A stretch of 64,000 bases of DNA from Synergistaceae bacterium. GTDB taxonomy: Bacteria; Synergistota; Synergistia; Synergistales; Synergistaceae. Location of the stretch: assembly GCA_030523725.1 (NCBI GenBank), contig JAUNHV010000001.1:62001-126000 (forward strand), given 5' to 3'. Positions 351 through 48,737 of this stretch are shown in pieces. A program made the translations under genes and the position numbers. The stretch's first letter is position 1. Each line of letters begins with the position of its first letter. The notes under the pieces were generated by a model. The model saw nothing but the letters and a program-made list of their open reading frames with translations, was not told the origin of the DNA and searched no databases.

Positions 351-1592
351 ATGCAACAAGTCCAAACAAAAAAACTAAATAATCTAAGTTTTTATAATCT
401 TATAGCTGTTGCTTTGGGAATCTTAGTAGGAATCATTTGTAAAAAAACTGGAAATGCTAGCTTTGGAATTGAGCAAATAAAACCGATAGGACAAGCTTTG
501 GTAAATCTTATGTCAGGGCTTACAGTTCCTCTCGTTTTCTTTTCCATTATTGAAACAATAGCTTCCTTAAAAGGTGTAAAGCAGCACAAAAAGATGTTAG
601 GTAGGGCTGCAGCATATTTTTTAGGAACAACAGTTATGGCTTGTATCATTGGAATTGTTGTAGCACTAATTTTTAAGCACCTTAATTTGTTTAAGGAGAT
701 AGTAATATACAGTAAGACATTAGTTGAAGATAGTAAACAGATAGCATTTATGCAATCCTTGACAAACATTATTCCTGCTGATTTGGTTGATGCTGTATTA
801 AAAGAAAATGTTGTGATGATTTTAATTTTTTCTCTTCTTATTGGTTTTTCCATTTCTGCAGCAGGAAAAGCCGGGGAAATGTTTAACCAGTTAATTGTCT
901 CGCTAAATTTTGTTATTAAAAAAATGGTTTCAATTGTTGTGAAAATTACACCAATTAGCGTTTTTGCAATGTGCGCATGGCTTGTTTCTGAATTTGGCTA
1001 CAAAAGAATGGGACAGTTGAAGTGGCTACTTGTCGCCGTGTTAATTGGTTACGTACTTCACATTGTGATTACCTTTGGTTTTGCTTTGAAATTTTTTGCT
1101 AAAATTCCAGTGCTTAATTTCTTTAAGAAAATTTTCCCCGTCATAGCATTTGCCATGACCTCTACTTCCTCAATTGCGAGCATTCCTGTTGCAGAGGAAG
1201 TCTCGCACTCTCTTGGTACAAGGGACACAGTCACCTCACTTGTTATCCCTTCAGGTTCCGTTGTAAATATGGATGGAACAGCAGTTTATCTCACAATTTG
1301 TGCTATTTTTTTCGCTACTGGCTCTGGTGTTTCCCTTTCCATTTGGCAGATGATTTTGATGACTTTTACTGTAATATTAGCTGTTTTTGGAACTGCCGGT
1401 GTGCCAGGCGCTGGTTTTATTATGCTTTCCATGGTTATGGGGGCATTGAAGCTTGATGTTAATCTTATAATGCTGATTTATATTGTAGATAAAATTTTTG
1501 ACATAGGACGCACTTGCCTTAATGTAACAGGAGACATGGTTGCCTCAGTTTGCATCGAGCAGTGGTGCAGGGAAGCAGAGAAACAAAATTAA
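351..1592 (+). CDS. Dicarboxylate/amino acid:cation symporter (canonical SDF/DAACS member)
   Basis: 413-residue integral membrane carrier of the sodium:dicarboxylate symporter family (GltP/DctA/GltPh type), which imports glutamate, aspartate or C4-dicarboxylates with Na+ or H+. All family signatures are present: the hairpin-1 serine-rich motif TSTSS near residue 270, the sodium-site motif NMDGT at about 306-310, and RTCLNVTGD from about residue 387, which holds the substrate-binding Arg, Asn and Asp. The start follows a strong GGAGGAG ribosome-binding site. It is the first of five SDF genes in a row and the only one with intact binding motifs, so it is probably the functional reference copy. 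The exact substrate cannot be told from sequence. Confidence 0.92.
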   Translation: MQQVQTKKLNNLSFYNLIAVALGILVGIICKKTGNASFGIEQIKPIGQALVNLMSGLTVPLVFFSIIETIASLKGVKQHKKMLGRAAAYFLGTTVMACIIGIVVALIFKHLNLFKEIVIYSKTLVEDSKQIAFMQSLTNIIPADLVDAVLKENVVMILIFSLLIGFSISAAGKAGEMFNQLIVSLNFVIKKMVSIVVKITPISVFAMCAWLVSEFGYKRMGQLKWLLVAVLIGYVLHIVITFGFALKFFAKIPVLNFFKKIFPVIAFAMTSTSSIASIPVAEEVSHSLGTRDTVTSLVIPSGSVVNMDGTAVYLTICAIFFATGSGVSLSIWQMILMTFTVILAVFGTAGVPGAGFIMLSMVMGALKLDVNLIMLIYIVDKIFDIGRTCLNVTGDMVASVCIEQWCREAEKQN

Positions 1593-1619
1593 TCACGAAA
1601 ATTTACTTAATGTCGTAAC

Positions 1620-2858
1620 ATGAGTAGCCCCAAAAATAAATCACAATTAATCAACATTCTTGCTCTTGTCTTAGGTTGTGTTGCTGGCTGTGTGCTAAAC
1701 ATTACCAGAAATACAGGTTTTACATACACAGTCCTTGCACCCTTTGGTTCGTTGTATATCCGAGTGCTGCAATTTGTTACCTTGCCCATGATATTTTGCC
1801 TTATCATTGTTTCTGTCATTTCATCGCCAAGCTTGAAAAATATGGTTCTATTAAGTGTTGGAACTCTTCTTTGCAACATTGTTGTGGTAATTTTTCTATG
1901 TAGTATTGTCTTTTGTGTTGCAATCCTTTTTGTTTCAAAGCGTTATATAACAATAACATCAAGGGCTATGTCTGATGAATTTATAGTTCCTGCAATAAGT
2001 TATATGGACAAATTTATGAACAAGATTCCATCTGGTATTTTTGGAATGTTCTTGCAAAGATATTTACTTGCAATCTTTGTTATAGCAATATTTATTGGCA
2101 TACTAATCGTGCTTGAGGGGGACAGAGTTGATTGTCTTACCAAGATGATTATTTCAACCAACGCTGTGTTAAAAAAGATGTTGGATATAATTCTCCGTTT
2201 TGCCCCACTAGGTATCTTTACGATAACTGCTAATGCCTTTGCTAGCAATGAATTAGTGGTACTAAAAAATTTACTCGGATTATTTTGCATGGCATGCATT
2301 GCCAGCTTAATCTATTGGTTACTAACGAGTTTTTTGGCATCTACTGTTACTCAAAAGTCTTTTTCCTCATATATTGAGGCAGAGTATCCTGCAATATTTC
2401 TAGGTTTTGTAACATGTTCTTCACTTGCATGCGTTCCGTTAGTGCAAAAAAGTGCCGATGATTTGGGGTGTAGAAGGGAGACTTCATCCTTTGTTGTTCC
2501 CTTAACAAGTTTGTTGATAAAACCTGGAATTGCTATGCATCTTTACTGTTTTCTTACCTTTGCCGTTGTCGCTAGCGGTAACGCTATGCCACTTTACAAA
2601 TGGTTCTTTATGATTTTTATAGCTATGTTTTGCTCACTTACCGCTCCTGCTATTCCTATGGTTGGAATATTAATGATTCCAACCGCTCTTGCCTATTTAG
2701 GGATGATAACTGATCCAAAATTGTTTGGGCTTTTGTTTGCAATCGATCCTTTTATTGATATGATTGGTTCAGCTACTACCTGTGCGTCGAACGTATTTTC
2801 TGCGGTAATCTTGGATAAAATTATATCTTGTAGAAAAAATTCACAAGCTTCATCTTAA
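1620..2858 (+). CDS. Divergent SDF-family transporter paralogue 1
   Basis: 412 residues with the helix pattern of the sodium:dicarboxylate symporter family and a hairpin-1-like VTCSSLACVP. The diagnostic motifs are lost. Where the canonical neighbour has NMDGT this protein reads IKPGI, with Lys in place of Met and no Asp. Where the neighbour has RTCLNVTGD this one reads GSATTCASN, so the substrate Arg and the Na+-site Asp are gone. The first helix-8 aspartate, lost in the other paralogues, is still present (AIDPFID). No strong ribosome-binding site precedes the ATG; it lies 27 nt after the canonical carrier gene and is probably co-transcribed. It could be a carrier with altered coupling, a sensor or an inactive subunit. 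Confidence 0.82.
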   Translation: MSSPKNKSQLINILALVLGCVAGCVLNITRNTGFTYTVLAPFGSLYIRVLQFVTLPMIFCLIIVSVISSPSLKNMVLLSVGTLLCNIVVVIFLCSIVFCVAILFVSKRYITITSRAMSDEFIVPAISYMDKFMNKIPSGIFGMFLQRYLLAIFVIAIFIGILIVLEGDRVDCLTKMIISTNAVLKKMLDIILRFAPLGIFTITANAFASNELVVLKNLLGLFCMACIASLIYWLLTSFLASTVTQKSFSSYIEAEYPAIFLGFVTCSSLACVPLVQKSADDLGCRRETSSFVVPLTSLLIKPGIAMHLYCFLTFAVVASGNAMPLYKWFFMIFIAMFCSLTAPAIPMVGILMIPTALAYLGMITDPKLFGLLFAIDPFIDMIGSATTCASNVFSAVILDKIISCRKNSQASS

Positions 2859-2872
2859 ATAGGTGTTACGAA

Positions 2873-4093
2873 ATGAATAAATCAAAAGACAAATCAAAAT
2901 TAGTGAATATTATTGCTCTCTTCTTAGGTTGTGTTGTTGGGTGCGTGTTGAATGTCACAGGACATATAAGCATTAGCCACACAGTATTTGCACCAATTGG
3001 TTCTTTGTATGTTCGCATATTGCAATTTGTCGCTTTACCCATGATATTTTGCCTTGTTATAGTTTCTATTACATCTCAACCAAGCATAAAAAAAATAGCC
3101 TCCTTGGCATATAAGACCATCTTTTGCAATATTGTATCTGCAATATTAATTGGTATTATTACTTTTTGTGTAACAATCTTTTTTGTGGCACATAATTACT
3201 TAACACTTGCTACAGCATCTCATGCCTCTAAGCATGTAGCCTATGCACAAAATTATATGGATTTGTTGATGAATACTGTTAAATCCGGTGTAATAGGAAG
3301 ATATATGCAACAAAATTTATTCTTTGTCTTTATTGTAGCAATATCATTTGGAATACTTATGGTGCTCCACAGGAAGACGCTTGATAGCTTTGCAGACATG
3401 ATAAACGCAATAACCTCTGTACTAAAAAAAATGTTGGATCTTGTTGTCAAATTTGCTCCAATAGCTATTTTTTCAATTGTAGCCAACGCCTTTGCAAGTA
3501 ATGATCTTAGTACATTAAGAAATTTACTAGGCTTGATAGGAATGGCATGTGTAATAGCTGTAAGCTACGTGTTAGTTGCAACACTCATTGAGGCTATTGT
3601 TACAAAAAGGTCTTTCATTTCATGTCTGGTTACCACGTATCCTGCAATTTTCTTCGGTTTTGTAACCTGTTCCTCGGTTGCATGTATTCCTTTAACTCAG
3701 CAATGTGCTGATGAATTAGGGTGCAGAAAGGAAACTTCCTCTTTTGTTGTTCCCTTGGCAAATTTGTTGATAAAGGCAGGAGGCACTTTGAGTATTTACA
3801 GTTTGATTACCTTTACTATTGTTGCAGGTGGTAATGTTATGCCACTTTACAAATGGTTTTATATGATTTTTTTAGTAATGGCTTGTGCGCTCGCTATGCC
3901 TGCTGTCCCAATGGCAGCTATTTTTGTTATTCCTACCGCACTTACTCATTTAGGAATAACTATGAATCAGAATTTGACAGGGCTTTTGATTGCTGTATAC
4001 ACTTTTATTGATATGTTTGGCACAGCTGCTACATGTGCGTCAAATGTTTTTTGCGCAGTAATAGTGGATAAACTTAGATTGTGTAAAAGGTAA
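2873..4093 (+). CDS. Divergent SDF-family transporter paralogue 2
   Basis: 406-residue membrane protein, clearly a tandem duplicate of its neighbours (shared N-terminal pattern KSKLVNIIALFLG, shared SSFVVPL and LLIK). The sodium-site motif is IKAGG instead of NMDGT, and the helix-8 motif is GTAATCASN instead of RTxxNVxGD. The helix-8 aspartate equivalent to GltPh Asp394 (FIDM) is kept, while the one equivalent to Asp390 is Tyr. An AGGTG ribosome-binding site precedes the ATG, and the gap to the upstream paralogue is 14 nt, which fits one operon. Substrate unknown. Confidence 0.82.
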   Translation: MNKSKDKSKLVNIIALFLGCVVGCVLNVTGHISISHTVFAPIGSLYVRILQFVALPMIFCLVIVSITSQPSIKKIASLAYKTIFCNIVSAILIGIITFCVTIFFVAHNYLTLATASHASKHVAYAQNYMDLLMNTVKSGVIGRYMQQNLFFVFIVAISFGILMVLHRKTLDSFADMINAITSVLKKMLDLVVKFAPIAIFSIVANAFASNDLSTLRNLLGLIGMACVIAVSYVLVATLIEAIVTKRSFISCLVTTYPAIFFGFVTCSSVACIPLTQQCADELGCRKETSSFVVPLANLLIKAGGTLSIYSLITFTIVAGGNVMPLYKWFYMIFLVMACALAMPAVPMAAIFVIPTALTHLGITMNQNLTGLLIAVYTFIDMFGTAATCASNVFCAVIVDKLRLCKR

Positions 4094-4116
4094 GAAGCTT
4101 TACGTTAGGTTATTTA

Positions 4117-5367
4117 ATGGATAAATCAAAGAGTAAATCTAAGTTAGTGAATGTTATTACACTTTTGCTAGGTTTTGTTGTTGGCTGCGCGTTGAATGTT
4201 ACTGGAAATGTGGAGTTTAGCAATACATTTTTTGCTCCATTGGGTTCCTTGTATGTGTCTATGTTGCAATTTGTTGCTTTGCCTATGGTATTTTGTATTG
4301 TTATAGTTTCTATTACGTCACAGCCAAGCATAAGAAAAATAGTTTCTTTAGTGTACAAGACCATTATCTGCGATATTTTATCTGCAGCATTAATAGGTGT
4401 TATTGCTTTTTTTGTTTCAGCTTTTTTCGTGGCACGTGAATTTTTAACATTAGCACCGACTGTCCTTGCCTCCAAGCATCTGTCTTTTGCACAAAATCAC
4501 GTAAATAAGCTCATAACTACTGTGCCGTCAGAAATTATAGCAAAATTCATGCGAGAACATTTATTTTTTGTTCTTATAGCTGCAATTTTTCTTGGTTTTC
4601 TCATGGTGTATAAAAAGGAAAAGTTTGATCCACTCGCTAGGATGATTATTTCAATAAATTCAGTATTGAAAGAAATGCTAGGCATAATTGTTCGTTTTGC
4701 TCCAATAGGTATCTTTTCGGTAACCGCTAATGCCTTTGCGAGTAACGACCTAGCTGTAGTGAAAAATTTGTTTGGGTTAGTCTGTATGACATTTGTGGTA
4801 GCCATAGTCTATATACTACTTACTACTACCATAGTTGCTATTGCAACTAAGAATTCTTTTTATGCATGTGTCAGGGCGGAGTTTTCTCCATTGTTCTTTG
4901 GTTTTGTAACCAGTTCTTCACCTGCTTGTATTCCATTAGCACAAAAATGCGCAGACGATTTGGGATGTAAAAAGGAAATTTCTTCTTTTGTTGTTCCCTT
5001 AACAAACCTATTGATAAAAGCAGGAAGCACCATGAATATTTATTGCATGGTTGCTTTTGTTATTACTGCTAGCGGCACTGTAATGTCACTGACTAGATGG
5101 ATTTTTATGATTTTATTGGCAATGTGTTGTGCACTTGCAGTTCCAGCAATTCCTCTTGGAACTATTTTTGTTATTCCAACTGCACTTTCATTCTTAAATA
5201 TAATTGCTGACAATAACCTTATGGGGCTTTTGTTTACAGTATATACATTTCTTGATATGCTCGCCACAGCTGTTAGCTGTCAGTCAAATGTTTTTTGCGC
5301 AGTGTTAGTGGATAAAATTAATTTGCGCAAAAGAAAGACAAAATTTTTATCTGAGGAAATTCAATGA
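4117..5367 (+). CDS. Divergent SDF-family transporter paralogue 3
   Basis: 416-residue polytopic membrane protein of the same divergent subgroup. Hairpin 1 reads VTSSSPACIP, closer to the canonical TSSS than in paralogues 1 and 2. The sodium-site region is IKAGS and the helix-8 region ATAVSCQSN, so the canonical Arg, Asn and Asp are missing. The conserved LLIK lysine is present. The stop codon overlaps the ATG of the next paralogue (ATGA), which suggests translational coupling. No substrate can be predicted. Confidence 0.82.
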   Translation: MDKSKSKSKLVNVITLLLGFVVGCALNVTGNVEFSNTFFAPLGSLYVSMLQFVALPMVFCIVIVSITSQPSIRKIVSLVYKTIICDILSAALIGVIAFFVSAFFVAREFLTLAPTVLASKHLSFAQNHVNKLITTVPSEIIAKFMREHLFFVLIAAIFLGFLMVYKKEKFDPLARMIISINSVLKEMLGIIVRFAPIGIFSVTANAFASNDLAVVKNLFGLVCMTFVVAIVYILLTTTIVAIATKNSFYACVRAEFSPLFFGFVTSSSPACIPLAQKCADDLGCKKEISSFVVPLTNLLIKAGSTMNIYCMVAFVITASGTVMSLTRWIFMILLAMCCALAVPAIPLGTIFVIPTALSFLNIIADNNLMGLLFTVYTFLDMLATAVSCQSNVFCAVLVDKINLRKRKTKFLSEEIQ

Positions 5368-6614
5368 ATAAATCGAAAAACAAATCAAAGTTAGTGAATA
5401 TTATTGCACTTCTATTAGGCGGTTTAGTTGGCTGTGTGTTAAACATTACTGGGCACGCTAATATCTGCCATGTTTTTTTATCGCCTGTAGGGGCATTATA
5501 CGTTAATATGCTGCAATTCGTTGCTTTGCCTCTGGTATTTTGCCTTGTTATAGTTTCTATCACCTCACGGCCCAGCGTAAAAAAAATAGCCTCCTTAGCA
5601 TGTGAGACTATTGTCAGCAATATTTTTTCTGCAACATTAATTGGCGTTATAGCTTTTTTTGTTACGATTTTTTTTGTTACTCATAATTTTTTATCGTTGG
5701 CACCAAATATTCTCACCTCTAAGCATGTGGTTTTTGCCCAAAATTACATGGACAAGCTAATGAACACTGTTCCGTCTGGTATTTTAGGAAAATTTATGCG
5801 GGAAAACTTGTTTTTTGTTCTTGTTGTAGCATTGTTGCTTGGTATTTTTATAGTGTTTGAAAAAGGTAAGCTTGATTATCTTACTAGAATGATTGCCTCG
5901 ATGAATTCAGTATTAAATAAAATGCTAGGTATAACAGTTAGTTTTGCTCCAATTGGTATTTTTGCAATAACTGCTAAAGCCTTTGCAACCAATGATCTTG
6001 GAGTGTTGGAAAACTTATTTGGACTAATTTGTCTGGTACTGGTAATATGTGTAGTATATCTAGTTATAGCAACATTTTTTGTAGCAATTGCCACAAAAAA
6101 ATCTTTTGTCACCTGTCTTGCTACGGAATATCCAGCTGTATTTCTTGGCTTTGTAACAACTTCTTCACCTGCCTGTATCCCATTTGCACAGAAATGTGCA
6201 GATGAATTAGGCTGCCATAAAGGGACATCCTCCTTTGTTGTCCCCTTAACTAATTTATTGATAAAGACAGGAAGCACAGTGAACATTTATTGCCTGCTTG
6301 CCTTTGTTATTACCGCCAGTGGTACGGTTATGCCACTCTATAAATGGTTTTATATGATTTTCTTAGCGATGGTGTGTGCCTTGGCAGTGCCTGCTATCCC
6401 CATGGGAGCTGTTTTCGTTATTCCAACAGCACTTTCATTCTTGAATGTAACTGTGAATCAAAGTCTTATGGGACTTTTGTTTGCTGTTTATGCGTTTATT
6501 GATATGCCTAGTACTGCGGCAACCTGCGAGTCAAATATTCTTTGTTCAATAGTTGTAGATAAAATCGAGCAACTCCGAAAAAATAGATTACACAGAATGA
6601 AAGAGCTGTCATAG
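5364..6614 (+). CDS. Divergent SDF-family transporter paralogue 4
   Basis: 416 residues, most similar to paralogue 3. It has the same architecture with IKTGS at the former NMDGT position and STAATCESN at the former RTxxNVxGD position. The start codon overlaps the preceding stop by 4 nt and has a GAGGAAA ribosome-binding site inside the upstream gene. It is the last symporter of the tandem array and is followed after 7 nt by ecfT. The reading frame is full length with no interruptions, so the gene appears to be kept under selection despite the lost motifs. Confidence 0.82.
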   Translation: MNKSKNKSKLVNIIALLLGGLVGCVLNITGHANICHVFLSPVGALYVNMLQFVALPLVFCLVIVSITSRPSVKKIASLACETIVSNIFSATLIGVIAFFVTIFFVTHNFLSLAPNILTSKHVVFAQNYMDKLMNTVPSGILGKFMRENLFFVLVVALLLGIFIVFEKGKLDYLTRMIASMNSVLNKMLGITVSFAPIGIFAITAKAFATNDLGVLENLFGLICLVLVICVVYLVIATFFVAIATKKSFVTCLATEYPAVFLGFVTTSSPACIPFAQKCADELGCHKGTSSFVVPLTNLLIKTGSTVNIYCLLAFVITASGTVMPLYKWFYMIFLAMVCALAVPAIPMGAVFVIPTALSFLNVTVNQSLMGLLFAVYAFIDMPSTAATCESNILCSIVVDKIEQLRKNRLHRMKELS

Positions 6615-43479: not shown

Positions 43480-45309
43480 TTATCTATCAATTGAAGATGG
43501 AACACTATAATAATATCCATCATCTCCACCACCAAATGTTAGCTTATGCTCAGGTTTTGCATTTATAAAGAAGACAAAACCTACCTTTAGATCATAATTA
43601 GTGTAATATTCTTTACACCAAAGCTGAAATGTCATGCAGTGACGTATAAATGTTAATACGTAGCGCATCTCAGCTAAACTGTTAGTAATAGAGTCGTAGC
43701 CACCCCGCAGTGCAAGAAACCATTTGTTATTTGCATCGCCGAATGGTAGTTTAAAGGCTAATGATTGGAATATATTTCTGTTGTCCTCGTATCTATCCCA
43801 GCTCATAGGAGATGTCCCTTGAACATTACGCCACTGGTACGATGAGTTGAGCAAGAAAGCACCAATTTGGTAGTTAAGTCCAATTCTGGCATTCCACACC
43901 TGTTGGGCTTCATCATAGCTTGAATAATTGTAACGCATAAAGCTAGCACCTATATAAGGCGAAAATATTAAAAACTTCCATGTTGTTGGACTTGTAAAAT
44001 TTGCACCATAGCCAAAACGTTCAATCCAAGGGGAATGTTCTTCGCCGAAATCTGACTCTTGATAACTCCCCCACATTGCTTTCAGGTTGATTTTTCCAAG
44101 TTTGCCGATGTTAACATCTGGTGTAGTTAATGAAAATTCAGGTTGCCTTGTTAAATTATGCTCGACATCCTCCTCACCAATTCTCATACGGGTAGATAGA
44201 AGTTCATATTTGCTGATTCGAAAATGTGCATTCCAACCATTTTTAGTGAAAAGCAAGCCATACTCTGGTCTCCAACGAATAACATCATCACGTTTATTAT
44301 ATAGTCTATTTAACTGACCATATAACTTCATGCCATCAAAAACATCAACTGTGTAGCGGAGCTTTGTTTCAAATTTTGGTGTAAGATTGGAAAAACTGCG
44401 AAACCACGCCATTCCCCATAAGTCTAATTTTCCAAAATCATCAAAGTCAAGCTGACCTCGTAGTCCTACACCAACTCCTAAATTAGAATCATATCCAACG
44501 GTAGGATTTATTTTACGTTTTGATCTACCTATAGTCATATCAAATGGTGAAACAAATAATAGACTCTTACCATAGTATAAACGTGGCCGCTTAATAACAG
44601 TTTTTTCCCCTGGTACGACTACAACCTGCTTTGTCTCAAAATGGTAATGTGGAAGCTCAGCTTCACATGATGTCATTTTTGCATTTTCCCACACTGAAAC
44701 TGATGTGTTGGGATTAAGACGAGTTAATTTTGATTTAGCAACGTAGCCTTGCCGGGCTGCTTGTGTATTTTTGAGTGCAATTGCAGTACCAGCTGTAAAA
44801 AACATTTTATCTACTGAACCATGTGGAGTTAACAGTTCCCCTCGTCCAAGATTTGCGTCATATCGAAGATGAGTTCCTCTGAGTTCTGTTTTTGCGTCTT
44901 TTAACACTACTTCTTGTTTGCCAGATGGAGAGTATCCCTCAACTAGATTAAGATCAGTGTAATATACTACCTTTTCTGCCGTAATTGTTATACTTCCATC
45001 AGTTATAGCTGCATTGCCAGTTGCAGTAGCTATAGAATTTGTTTCATCAAATGTCACTACATCTGCGTCAAGGGTTATTTCTTGTTTTTCAGTAATAGAA
45101 CTATTTTTTTTCTTTTCAGTATTATAATCAGCGTCTAATTTTTTTTGAATTTCGCTATTTAAAATTTTCTCTTGGGAAATATCATGTGGATCTTCAGCCA
45201 AATCCTCTTGTAAAAATCCCTCACGTGCATACAGTACATTAGGGAATATCTGAAAATATAGATTGGAAAGCAAGAATAAAATAATAATTGCTATCTTTTT
45301 TCTTTCCAT
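43480..45309 (-). CDS. lptD: LPS-assembly outer-membrane protein LptD
   Basis: 609-residue outer-membrane protein. After a signal peptide there is an OstA/LptA-like beta-jellyroll region (about 75-190: ITLDADVVTFDETNSIATATGN onwards in short repeats), then a long aromatic-rich region of alternating strands forming the beta-barrel. LptD with LptE inserts lipopolysaccharide into the outer leaflet. No separate lptA and no lptE are seen; the N-terminal domain is continuous with the periplasmic bridge in the family. It is shorter than E. coli LptD. It overlaps lptC by 19 nt. Confidence 0.9.
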   Translation of the reverse strand: MERKKIAIIILFLLSNLYFQIFPNVLYAREGFLQEDLAEDPHDISQEKILNSEIQKKLDADYNTEKKKNSSITEKQEITLDADVVTFDETNSIATATGNAAITDGSITITAEKVVYYTDLNLVEGYSPSGKQEVVLKDAKTELRGTHLRYDANLGRGELLTPHGSVDKMFFTAGTAIALKNTQAARQGYVAKSKLTRLNPNTSVSVWENAKMTSCEAELPHYHFETKQVVVVPGEKTVIKRPRLYYGKSLLFVSPFDMTIGRSKRKINPTVGYDSNLGVGVGLRGQLDFDDFGKLDLWGMAWFRSFSNLTPKFETKLRYTVDVFDGMKLYGQLNRLYNKRDDVIRWRPEYGLLFTKNGWNAHFRISKYELLSTRMRIGEEDVEHNLTRQPEFSLTTPDVNIGKLGKINLKAMWGSYQESDFGEEHSPWIERFGYGANFTSPTTWKFLIFSPYIGASFMRYNYSSYDEAQQVWNARIGLNYQIGAFLLNSSYQWRNVQGTSPMSWDRYEDNRNIFQSLAFKLPFGDANNKWFLALRGGYDSITNSLAEMRYVLTFIRHCMTFQLWCKEYYTNYDLKVGFVFFINAKPEHKLTFGGGDDGYYYSVPSSIDR

Positions 45310-45839
45310 ATAATTTTTCCCCCATTAGGCATCTCACAAGTTTTACTAGTCTCGTGGAGAATAGCAGTATTAGTTTTTATTAATATTTCCTTGCTAGTTG
45401 CACAGACATTTCCCTTTATATTCCATTTTTTTCTTTGTGCTTCAAACGATAAGTTATTAGCGACGATATTATATTCATTGTTATTTTGCATGGAAATAAC
45501 CGTTGCTTCAGCAAAATTAAAAACTTGATCTGTCATATGATAATTGGCAGACCGTGCTTTGATTTTAGTCTGATCATTTTCTCCTCTTACATAAGCATCA
45601 AGATTCGTAGCAGAAATATACTGACCTTCTTTATAGGCCTGTGGAGAAGTTACTTTCCATAATTTATCGCAAATTACTCGTTCAAATGATATCCCTTTTA
45701 CGGTTAACTCAGGGGAAGTAGATTTATTAGTGACATCTTTTTCAAGATCTATGTGCAAGTCTCTCCAAATCATAATGCCCAGGAGTATAAGAAGAAAAAA
45801 GGAAAAATATAATATGTTTTTTTTATTCCAAAGCTTCAT
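45291..45839 (-). CDS. lptC: LPS export protein LptC
   Basis: 182-residue bitopic protein with one N-terminal transmembrane helix (ILYFSFFLLILLGIMIW) and a periplasmic beta-jellyroll that receives lipopolysaccharide from the LptBFG transporter. Repeated strand patterns with NAT/SANYHMTDQVFNFAEATV and NNLSFEAQRKKWNIKGNV match LptC/DUF1239. The 19-nt overlap with lptD supports a joint function. The LptBFG genes are not in the window. Confidence 0.85.
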   Translation of the reverse strand: MKLWNKKNILYFSFFLLILLGIMIWRDLHIDLEKDVTNKSTSPELTVKGISFERVICDKLWKVTSPQAYKEGQYISATNLDAYVRGENDQTKIKARSANYHMTDQVFNFAEATVISMQNNNEYNIVANNLSFEAQRKKWNIKGNVCATSKEILIKTNTAILHETSKTCEMPNGGKIIWKEKR

Positions 45840-45843
45840 TAGG

Positions 45844-47088
45844 TTATTTTTGAGGTTGAGGTGTAACGGTAGATGACCCCTGAGGAATCGTATTATTTGG
45901 AGTTACTATAGGTGTAATAGCGGTAGGTATCTTATAGCCAAGTGCATTTGCGGTATCCTCTGTGTTTACAAATAATACAGTGCCCTCCTTGAGTTGACGA
46001 TCGTTACCACGAATAAAAAAGCCTCCAACTAAGCCAACAGGCCCTAATAATAAGGCTCCAGCTAAACTAGTTGCTGCTGCACCAGCCATAGGTAGATATG
46101 CCTCTGTAGCTTTCTTTGCTTCCGTCCCGATGCCCAGCTTTACAGTTGATGGTCCGAGTATCTCTAGTGTATCAATCTCGATATCAATTTTAGAAGAGCG
46201 CCCAAATGCTCCAGGTAGGCGAACCTTAGTTACATGACCTAATATACGACTCCCGATGGGGGCTACTAACACGTCACCTATCATAATAGGCTCTGCCGTA
46301 GTTAGTGCTATAATATCTCCTTTTTTTACAGTTCTAACAGTTATCGTCTGGGTTAACTTGGCTTTTACGATAGTACCTTTGGGAAGTTCGACTGGCACAA
46401 GCGTAATCCCCTCTGGCAAAAGTTGAGAATAAATCTTCTCAAGACGTGGTAAGATAGCTCCACCATTTGTGTTTCCGTTCAAAATCACCTCAAGATTTTC
46501 AATACGCTTTATGAGTGATACGCTTGGATGTATTTTTTGCTCCAGAGCCCACTCTGCTATGGATGTTTTAAATAGGAGAGAAGGTTGACTTCCCATACTT
46601 TTTTCTAAGAAAGCAAGTAAGCTAGTCTGTCGCTCTGTTATGCTTCCAGGAAGCTCTCTACCAAATACCACAGTTTCGATTGAATGAAGCCGTTCAATTA
46701 ACCCTCCAGAGTTGATATTACCGTACACAATCGTCTCAACACGGTCTAAAATTTCAAATGCTGGTTTTGCGTTTTGGTCAGTAGGTGCGATTTTCACCTC
46801 GTTTTCAGTAGAAAGGTTCTTAGTAATTGGTGGCAGTGAGCTCGTTACATTTTGTGTCTGTGACGTGTCAGTATTCTCAGAAGATTGTGATTGAGCCTGA
46901 GGCACATTTTGCTGACTAGTGGTATCTGCCTTTGGAATGGCCAAGGGAGTCACCTTTTGTGTTGCAGGAGGTGGAGTAGTTGAAGAGGCTTGGACTGCAT
47001 CAGCAGAAGCAGCATACGTTTTTGGAACAAATGTATGCGATGTAAATATCACTGTAAAGATTAACAAAATAGAAGTAAATTTTTTCAT
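45844..47088 (-). CDS. Secreted envelope protein with short repeats and a VirB10/TrbI-like C-terminal barrel (unknown role)
   Basis: 414 residues. Signal peptide (about 1-26), a Ser/Thr/Pro/Gln-rich linker to about 105, then three degenerate repeats of the pattern R-V/I-E-x-I/L-E...V-x-G...G-G...E-R-L (for example DRVETIVYGNINSGGLIERL and KRIENLEVILNGNTNGGAI). From about residue 235 a beta domain reads PKGTIVKAKLTQTITVRTVKKG and APIGSRILGHVTKVRLPG, like the C-terminal barrel of VirB10/TrbI. A Gly/Ala-rich hydrophobic hairpin and a Pro/Thr tail follow. It lies between pyrG and lptC with a GGAGGAATT ribosome-binding site. The name and exact function are not known to me. Confidence 0.6.
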   Translation of the reverse strand: MKKFTSILLIFTVIFTSHTFVPKTYAASADAVQASSTTPPPATQKVTPLAIPKADTTSQQNVPQAQSQSSENTDTSQTQNVTSSLPPITKNLSTENEVKIAPTDQNAKPAFEILDRVETIVYGNINSGGLIERLHSIETVVFGRELPGSITERQTSLLAFLEKSMGSQPSLLFKTSIAEWALEQKIHPSVSLIKRIENLEVILNGNTNGGAILPRLEKIYSQLLPEGITLVPVELPKGTIVKAKLTQTITVRTVKKGDIIALTTAEPIMIGDVLVAPIGSRILGHVTKVRLPGAFGRSSKIDIEIDTLEILGPSTVKLGIGTEAKKATEAYLPMAGAAATSLAGALLLGPVGLVGGFFIRGNDRQLKEGTVLFVNTEDTANALGYKIPTAITPIVTPNNTIPQGSSTVTPQPQK

Positions 47089-47106: not shown

Positions 47107-48702
47107 TTAAGCATTATTTTTTTTTATTGCTTCCCTTACAAAACTAGAAAAAAGTGGATGAGGTCTTACTGGTCGTGACAAATATTCTGGTAAAAACTCA
47201 ACGCCAATCATCCAAGGGTGATTAACATTTTCTATTATATCAACTGTATTATCCTCTTCGCATATTCCAGAGATTACCATACCATTTGTACAAAACATTT
47301 CTGCATATTTATTATTAAATTCATAACGATGTCGATGGCGCTCAACTATCTCGTCTGTTGCATATATAACATGAGCCTTTGTTCCATGCTTTAATTTACA
47401 TTTATATGCACCTAGCCTTTGGTGTGGTTCAGAAGAAATATTATCATCATGTAAAATGTGTATCAGCGGTGTTGAAGTAACAATACTTGTATCAGAAAAA
47501 TAGGCATCTTGTAAATTTAGGACATTCCTTGCAAATTCAATTGCCATTGCTTGCATACCAAGCCCTATACCTAAAAATGGAATTCCATGCTCTCTTGCAT
47601 ATTTGCAAGCTTTTATTTTTCCCTCAACACCTCTTGTACCAAATCCTGATGGTACAAGAATAGCATCGGCATCTCCTAATAGTTCAACTGCATCTGTATT
47701 TTCCAATGTTTCAGCACTGATATTTTTCACCTTAATTCTTGTTCCAAGGTGTACTCCGGCGTGTAGTAATGCTTCATCCAGTGAAATATATGCATCTTTT
47801 ACTTCCGTATATTTGCCCACCAATGCAACCACAATCTCTCTTTCTCTTGTCTCGTATTTTTTTAGAAAATCTTTCCAGTCAGCAAGATTAGGCTCATTTT
47901 GAGTAGAAAGACCAAGCTTTTGCAAAACCAGAGTGTCAAAATTTTGTTTATGTAGTGTGATGGGAATTCTGTAGATGGTATCAGAATCTAAGGCTTGAAA
48001 AACTGATTTTTCAGATACTGAACCAAACAAAGCAATTTTTTGCCTAAGATCTTCTGGTACCTCCATTTGGCTTCTGCAGACAATTATATCAGGTTGAATT
48101 CCTATACGCCTAAGTTCATTGACGCTGTGTTGTGTCGGTTTTGTCTTAAGTTCACCACTTGCAGCGATATAAGGTACTAAAGTTACGTGACAGTAGAGAA
48201 TATTTTCCCTTCCTACACGTGAAGAAAGTTGTCTTATTGCTTCAAGATAAGGTAAACCCTCTATGTCACCAACTGTACCACCTATTTCTGCAATAACAAT
48301 ATCTTTATTTTTACCAACTCTTTCAATTCTATCTTGAATCTCATTTGTAATGTGCGGAATTACCTGAACAGTAGTCCCACCATATCCTCCAGATCTTTCA
48401 CGACTAATTACTGTGCTATAAACTTTGCCTGTTGTACAACTGTTTTCTCCCTTTATTGATTCATCAATAAAGCGTTCGTAGTGTCCAAGGTCTAAGTCAG
48501 TCTCTGCACCGTCACATGTCACAAAAACTTCGCCGTGTTGGTAAGGACTCATTGCTCCAGCATTTACATTGATGTAAGGATCCATTTTTAAGATAGAGAT
48601 ATTGAATCCCCTGCGCTTCAAAAGTACACCAAGAGAAGCTGCTGTTATACCCTTACCTAAAGAAGAAACAACGCCACCAGTTACAAAAATGTACTTTGTC
48701 AT
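47107..48702 (-). CDS. pyrG: CTP synthase with inactivated glutaminase domain
   Basis: 531-residue PyrG, which aminates UTP to CTP. The N-terminal amidoligase is intact: VTGGVVSSLGKGI, QHGEVFVTCDGAETDLDLGHYERF (Mg2+ aspartate), EIGGTVGDIEGLPYLEA. The C-terminal class I glutamine amidotransferase fold is complete in length, but its active site is not. The nucleophile motif, normally GICLGMQ, reads FLGIGLGMQA with Gly380 (codon GGG, 47563-47565). The catalytic His of the FHPE motif is Leu504 (EFLPEYLSRP, codon 47191-47193); only Glu506 remains. ILVPSGFG and HQRLG are also altered. It should therefore use free ammonia and not glutamine. AGGAGG precedes the ATG. Confidence 0.93.
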   Translation of the reverse strand: MTKYIFVTGGVVSSLGKGITAASLGVLLKRRGFNISILKMDPYINVNAGAMSPYQHGEVFVTCDGAETDLDLGHYERFIDESIKGENSCTTGKVYSTVISRERSGGYGGTTVQVIPHITNEIQDRIERVGKNKDIVIAEIGGTVGDIEGLPYLEAIRQLSSRVGRENILYCHVTLVPYIAASGELKTKPTQHSVNELRRIGIQPDIIVCRSQMEVPEDLRQKIALFGSVSEKSVFQALDSDTIYRIPITLHKQNFDTLVLQKLGLSTQNEPNLADWKDFLKKYETREREIVVALVGKYTEVKDAYISLDEALLHAGVHLGTRIKVKNISAETLENTDAVELLGDADAILVPSGFGTRGVEGKIKACKYAREHGIPFLGIGLGMQAMAIEFARNVLNLQDAYFSDTSIVTSTPLIHILHDDNISSEPHQRLGAYKCKLKHGTKAHVIYATDEIVERHRHRYEFNNKYAEMFCTNGMVISGICEEDNTVDIIENVNHPWMIGVEFLPEYLSRPVRPHPLFSSFVREAIKKNNA

Positions 48703-48737
48703 TTTTGTCCTCCTGAAACTATATGAATTTTTTTTAA

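Follow-up and report, generated by a model that had tools for sequence, protein, structure and literature searches.

A natural CTP synthase predicted to have lost glutamine use, one of several such amidotransferases in a Synergistaceae genome

Introduction

Enzymes that draw nitrogen from glutamine and channel NH3 through a tunnel are textbook illustrations of why cells keep clear of free ammonia. Amidation can run on ammonia alone. The classic natural case of a glutamine amidotransferase (GATase) enzyme that has gone ammonia-only is human CPS1, a carbamoyl-phosphate synthetase in which the catalytic Cys has become Ser (PMC4655335), and NadE type N is a strictly ammonia-using NAD synthetase of many bacteria (PMC3376133). 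CTP synthase accepts exogenous NH3, for which a vestibule of the GATase domain is the presumed entry point, and the G352P variant of the E. coli enzyme has no activity with glutamine and almost full activity with NH4Cl (PMC9138612). Blocked by DON, CTP synthase still uses NH4+, and a solvent opening to the tunnel has been described (PMC11211670). The ATPPase subunits of GMP synthetase alone also use external ammonia, although GMP synthetases have a high reported Km for ammonium, from tens to over 100 mM (PMC10526850). GlmS, the GlcN-6-P synthase, has been singled out as the one member of its subfamily that makes no use of ammonia (PMC9272926).

Here we describe a PyrG (CTP synthase) from a Synergistaceae bacterium, a naturally occurring form of a familiar enzyme whose loss of glutamine use, predicted from sequence, is one of a coordinated set. 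Like CPS1, it keeps a GATase domain that has lost its catalytic Cys, and it is predicted to have no glutaminase activity and to run on free ammonia; as in the CPS1-like state, the inherited GATase domain with its lost catalytic residues is joined to an intact synthetase. CPS1 differs in being another enzyme, with a urea-cycle role and a Cys to Ser change only, whereas this PyrG has lost the His too and lies in a genome with parallel losses in further enzymes. Ammonia activity without glutamine activity, as predicted here, is also the property of the G352P and DON-blocked enzymes, but those are laboratory products, and here the state became fixed naturally. NadE type N, in contrast, has no GATase domain, whereas this PyrG inherited one that was then inactivated. 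Our literature search, which had preprints and most subscription papers outside its coverage, found no description of a natural glutaminase-dead CTP synthase, nor of amidotransferase loss in Synergistota or of CarB without CarA in such genomes.

Results

The gene lies in a window of 64,000 nucleotides, the whole stretch of DNA analyzed, which corresponds to C10:62001-126000 in a genome of 1.55 Mb. This genome comprises 15 contigs, is rated 100% complete and is the sole member of its genus among the genomes compared. The GC content of the window is 37%, and that of the pyrG loci of most relatives is 47-60%. Its relatives had been taken at the outset for Negativicutes, an origin that we reject; the lineage is Synergistota; Synergistia; Synergistales; Synergistaceae, and the same family holds a genome (G007) whose pyrG stretch and a contig of Synergistaceae bacterium UBA1358 have identical sequences. 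The features of the gene are as follows.

47107..48702, minus strand: pyrG, CTP synthase of 531 aa, predicted glutaminase-dead (ORF and translation, Pfam PF06418 and PF00117, Foldseek)
47908..48702, minus strand: synthetase (amidoligase) half, residues 1-265, checked catalytic residues kept (Pfam, alignment)
47137..47802, minus strand: GATase half, residues 301-522 as delimited by Pfam, with the fold retained and the catalytic site gone (Pfam, alignment, predicted structure)
47563..47565, minus strand: codon 380, GGG, Gly for the nucleophile Cys (E. coli Cys379; alignment, sequence)
47191..47193, minus strand: codon 504, TTA, Leu for the catalytic His (E. coli His515; alignment, sequence)
47185..47187, minus strand: codon 506, GAA, retained Glu of the triad (E. 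coli Glu517; alignment, sequence)
47647..47649, minus strand: codon 352, TCA, Ser for E. coli Gly351, adjoining the oxyanion hole (alignment, sequence)
47491..47493, minus strand: codon 404, GAT, Asp for E. coli Glu403, glutamine site (alignment, sequence)
48709..48714, minus strand: AGGAGG, resembling a ribosome-binding site, ahead of the pyrG ATG by six bases (sequence)

The frame is open from ATG to TAA over 531 codons with no interruption, and the CTP_synth_N (PF06418, E 2.6e-123) and GATase (PF00117, residues 301-522) matches are both nearly full length. In the AlphaFold model (pLDDT 89.6, pTM 0.90) both domains are kept, with most of the GATase half above 90 pLDDT, and in Foldseek the full-length model matches E. 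coli CTP synthase with a TM of 0.95. The protein thus has the domain order and fold of bacterial PyrG (E. coli, PDB 1s1m, 5tkv, 8i9o), together with its synthetase and tunnel residues. Sequence identity is 50% to E. coli PyrG and 71% to the nearest relative, and between the synthetase half and those of relatives it is 85%. Every synthetase residue checked is kept (K18, D72, E140, D147, E149, K187, Q192 and K223 in E. coli numbering), and so is the tunnel constriction formed by P54, H57 and V60.

In the glutaminase site, the nucleophile segment reads GIGLGMQ and the His segment FLPE, so that the Cys of the GxCxGxQ motif of active class-I glutamine amidotransferases is absent and only Glu506 remains of the Cys-His-Glu triad, the other two positions being Gly380 and Leu504. 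Codons and alignment both bear out these replacements as originally read. The change of VPGGFG to VPSGFG (G351S in E. coli numbering) is likewise real, and we find in addition E403D in the glutamine site, which the first reading of the sequence had not listed. A further change that had been pointed out, HQRLG for MRLG, is present but less telling, because close relatives with an intact site have TSRLG. Other residues of the glutamine site (G352, F353, L380, Q383, R468 and E517, mapped onto E. coli PyrG) and the lid residue R356 are kept. With Cys379 and His515 replaced and the G351S and E403D changes added, the glutaminase is predicted to be dead. Replacement of the Cys codon (TGY to GGG) requires two base changes and that of the His codon (CAY to TTA) three, which excludes single base-calling errors as the cause; with the near-complete Pfam domains and the uninterrupted reading frame, this sustains the view that the change is fixed and not a sequencing error. 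The whole 1.55 Mb genome was searched for a second pyrG, a check proposed with the original prediction, and this PyrG is the only one found.

We examined 114 Synergistota PyrGs, the window enzyme among them, and 75 from other phyla. In an alignment of 190 PyrGs the catalytic Cys is present in 186/190 and the His in 185/190. Six Synergistota PyrGs lack one or the other, the window enzyme and five more: C to G in G019, which also has PSGFG and keeps its His; C to S in G018; H to Q in G015 and G016, where lid L11 is rewritten to GGAEHKNLNG and the R468 region is altered; and H to Q with a rewritten lid in G159, which belongs to another family. Outside Synergistota the Cys is Ser in Sporosarcina sp. 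JAI121 (L049) and the His is Asn in the Syntrophorhabdaceae bacterium Nt197P3bin122 MAG (L083). The claim that no lineage with this state had been described agrees with our literature search, but the state is not unique to this genome, as other Synergistota have lost Cys or His separately.

How many separate events this represents depends on a tree with long branches. A grouping of the window PyrG as sister to G015/G016, which would make theirs one shared loss, has a support of 84 in the full tree and is absent from the synthetase-only tree; in the latter the window enzyme pairs (support 63) with G044, a relative of equal genome size whose PyrG is intact, the pair nests among intact enzymes in a clade supported at 88, and G015/G016 branch outside this clade, weakly supported. 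The full-tree grouping is probably long-branch attraction, and for this reason we count at least four, and probably five, independent glutaminase losses among Synergistota PyrGs. As a separate observation, six near-complete Synergistota genomes (G162, G167, G168, G178, G180 and G058), one of them a single contig of 1.7 Mb, have no PyrG match, and these organisms perhaps depend on cytidine salvage only.

Branch lengths were fitted to the synthetase and GATase halves separately on one topology. The tip branch of the window PyrG is 0.770 for the GATase half and 0.156 for the synthetase half, the former being the longest of the 114 Synergistota PyrGs. When root-to-tip GATase distance was regressed on synthetase distance, with the fit made on enzymes that have both Cys and His, the window PyrG gave the largest residual of the 114 (z 7.7), and ranks 2 to 4 were taken by G016 (4.5), G015 (4.4) and G159 (2.6), all of which have lost the glutaminase. 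G018 ranks 7th (1.7) and G019 46th (0.4); the near-ordinary GATase rate in G019 is consistent with a recent loss there. Since the window PyrG has no relative closer than 71% identity, dN/dS was taken from G015 and G016 (L021/L022), the sole congeneric pair of glutaminase-lost enzymes. It is 0.072 for the GATase half and 0.009 for the synthetase half, values that indicate continuing purifying selection on the GATase half in this pair. The raised GATase value is not special to it, as an intact pair (L162/L154) has a similar ratio.

Loss of glutamine use does not appear to be confined to PyrG. In the window genome the class-I GATase profile matches only PyrG and, weakly, GuaA, whereas in G044 it matches PyrG, GuaA, CarA and one more protein. 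The other genes concerned in the window genome are as follows.

L210/L225/L275 (G000:C8), about 164.8-166.0 kb: GuaA, GMP synthetase
L271:4555-7371 (G000:C9): CarB, 939 aa, without CarA
L278:5244-6737 (G000:C13): GatA with lost catalytic residues

GuaA is 425 aa long. Its ATPPase half is intact and 74% identical to the G044 counterpart, but the GATase part is a remnant of ∼112 residues that lacks the stretches carrying the Cys and the FHPE motif. CarB has both ATP-grasp halves and lacks the C-terminal allosteric domain. No CarA was found in the genome with the class-I GATase profile, by which a CarA with a deleted GATase part would escape detection; carA lies directly upstream of carB in G044, whereas none adjoins carB here. 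Because pyrK, pyrD and pyrF, which adjoin guaA, are present along with carB, de novo pyrimidine synthesis looks retained. In GatA, aligned to the Ser-cisSer-Lys triad of S. aureus GatA, K79 is replaced by Ser and the cis-Ser S154 by Pro, with S178 kept; GatB is intact, and GatA itself is intact in G044 and G015. The glutaminase of GatCAB is thus predicted to be dead too. PurF and PurQ were not found in searches of the genome. GlmS, in contrast, starts MCGI and so keeps Cys1, and is otherwise normal, although its identity of 60/68% is below the 72-80% of relatives' GlmS; since this protein has diverged too, part of the divergence is genome-wide. A type III glutamine synthetase (GSIII) of 720 aa with its three Pfam parts is present. 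All matches to class-I or N-terminal-nucleophile GATase profiles in the genome are therefore predicted to be dead except GlmS, and, with GatCAB, the predicted loss of glutamine use extends over PyrG, GMP synthetase and carbamoyl-phosphate synthetase.

Related genomes have comparable losses, in combinations that vary from one to the next. In G018, GuaA has C to G, PurQ (L251) C to S and PurF Cys1 to Ser, with GlmS intact. G017 has C to G in GuaA and C to A in PurQ (L252), and its PyrG, HisH, GlmS and one PurF are intact. In G015 and G016 GuaA (L228, L229; 326-329 aa) has no GATase domain at all, CarB occurs without CarA and PurF has Cys1 to Gly, and PurL-PurQ, HisH, GlmS and GatA (the last from G015 only) are intact; GuaA and CarB of this pair resemble those of a lineage other than their relatives' and were possibly acquired. 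G019 has Cys1 to Gly in PurF and an intact GuaA, and GuaA is intact in G159 also. The Cys of GlmS is kept in 6/6 genomes with a readable N terminus. PurF occurs as a pair of paralogs, one starting MCG and one MSG, in both G017 (L239/L245) and G044 (L241/L246). The gatA of G018 (L267:1423-2912) is split into two overlapping frames with the catalytic residues kept, from an assembly error or as a pseudogene.

Discussion

We consider, with a probability of roughly 85%, that this PyrG is an ordinary CTP synthase permanently without glutamine use, which makes CTP from UTP, ATP and NH3 as part of a wider switch among amidotransferases. That it should work with free ammonia only, as originally predicted, is supported by its sequence, by its relatives and by published mutant biochemistry; the phenomenon appears wider than first claimed, with PyrG as one of several amidotransferases losing glutamine use. 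The proposed route of NH3 leads through the cavity of the inactive GATase half into the retained tunnel, and would explain why the GATase fold persists. In such a cell the core amidations would run on free ammonia, glutamine being reserved for GlmS and protein. That GlmS is kept accords with its description as an enzyme that makes no use of ammonia. Given the high ammonium Km reported for GMP synthetases, this model requires either that ammonia be abundant inside the cell or that the synthetase sites have adapted.

Synergistota are known for fermenting amino acids, with release of ammonia, and an ammonia-rich habitat is plausible for this organism. In a cell bathed in ammonia, selection on glutaminase sites would be relaxed wherever NH3 can substitute, and we infer that such relaxed selection, in the course of ammonia-rich life, lies behind the losses. 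On a broader view, it seems likely, although we hold this less firmly than the reading of PyrG itself, that several small-genome Synergistota lineages have repeatedly dropped glutamine, so that tRNA amidation, certain purine steps and the synthesis of CTP, GMP and carbamoyl phosphate depend on ammonia, with GlmS left as the single nucleotide-sugar enzyme to split glutamine.

Loss of the site might instead mean that pyrG is dispensable and decaying. In that case the cell would obtain CTP through salvage of cytidine, and the GATase half would be a pseudogene in the making, ahead of the disappearance of pyrG. The small, AT-rich genome (37% GC in the window), the fast evolution of the GATase half and the absence of PyrG altogether from several near-complete Synergistota genomes are all compatible with this. 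Yet the half of the protein that makes CTP is 85% identical to its relatives with the checked residues kept, the frame is open behind a good ribosome-binding site, purifying selection acts on the GATase half in the L021/L022 pair (dN/dS 0.072), and the presence of pyrK, pyrD, pyrF and carB points to retained de novo synthesis; we regard decay as improbable.

Continued use of glutamine, with NH3 supplied to PyrG by a distinct glutaminase subunit or by way of another nucleophile, appears very improbable, even though two-subunit GATase/synthetase pairs are known elsewhere, for example the archaeal GMP synthetase. Apart from the GuaA remnant, PyrG is the only class-I GATase match of the genome, searches turned up no split CTP synthase of such a kind, no replacement Cys lies near position 380, and further residues of the glutamine pocket are lost. 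A 15-contig assembly does leave room for sequencing, assembly or binning artefacts, but these would have to produce at least two and at least three base changes at the catalytic codons within one open frame, comparable losses in independent genomes and matching losses in unlinked genes on other contigs, and we give this explanation almost no weight.

If the ammonia-only reading of PyrG and its companions is true, the dropping of the glutaminase in four enzymes, with overlapping sets in relatives, would indicate that the glutamine-channeling arrangement depends on ammonia scarcity. These enzymes would offer natural examples for asking why GATase domains persist after the loss of catalysis and how amidases work with NH3 alone, with the retention of GlmS as a built-in control, and they raise the question whether glutaminase loss can serve as a genomic marker of ammonia-rich life. 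The pattern of joint losses, more than the single PyrG, is what would surprise specialists.

Elsewhere in the window, an LptD_N-like outer-membrane gene and two frames without a Pfam match lie downstream of pyrG on the same strand (43480-47088). Five ORFs of similar size (406-416 aa) stand in a row at 351-6614, and the three of these that were tested are sodium:dicarboxylate/amino-acid symporters (PF00375).
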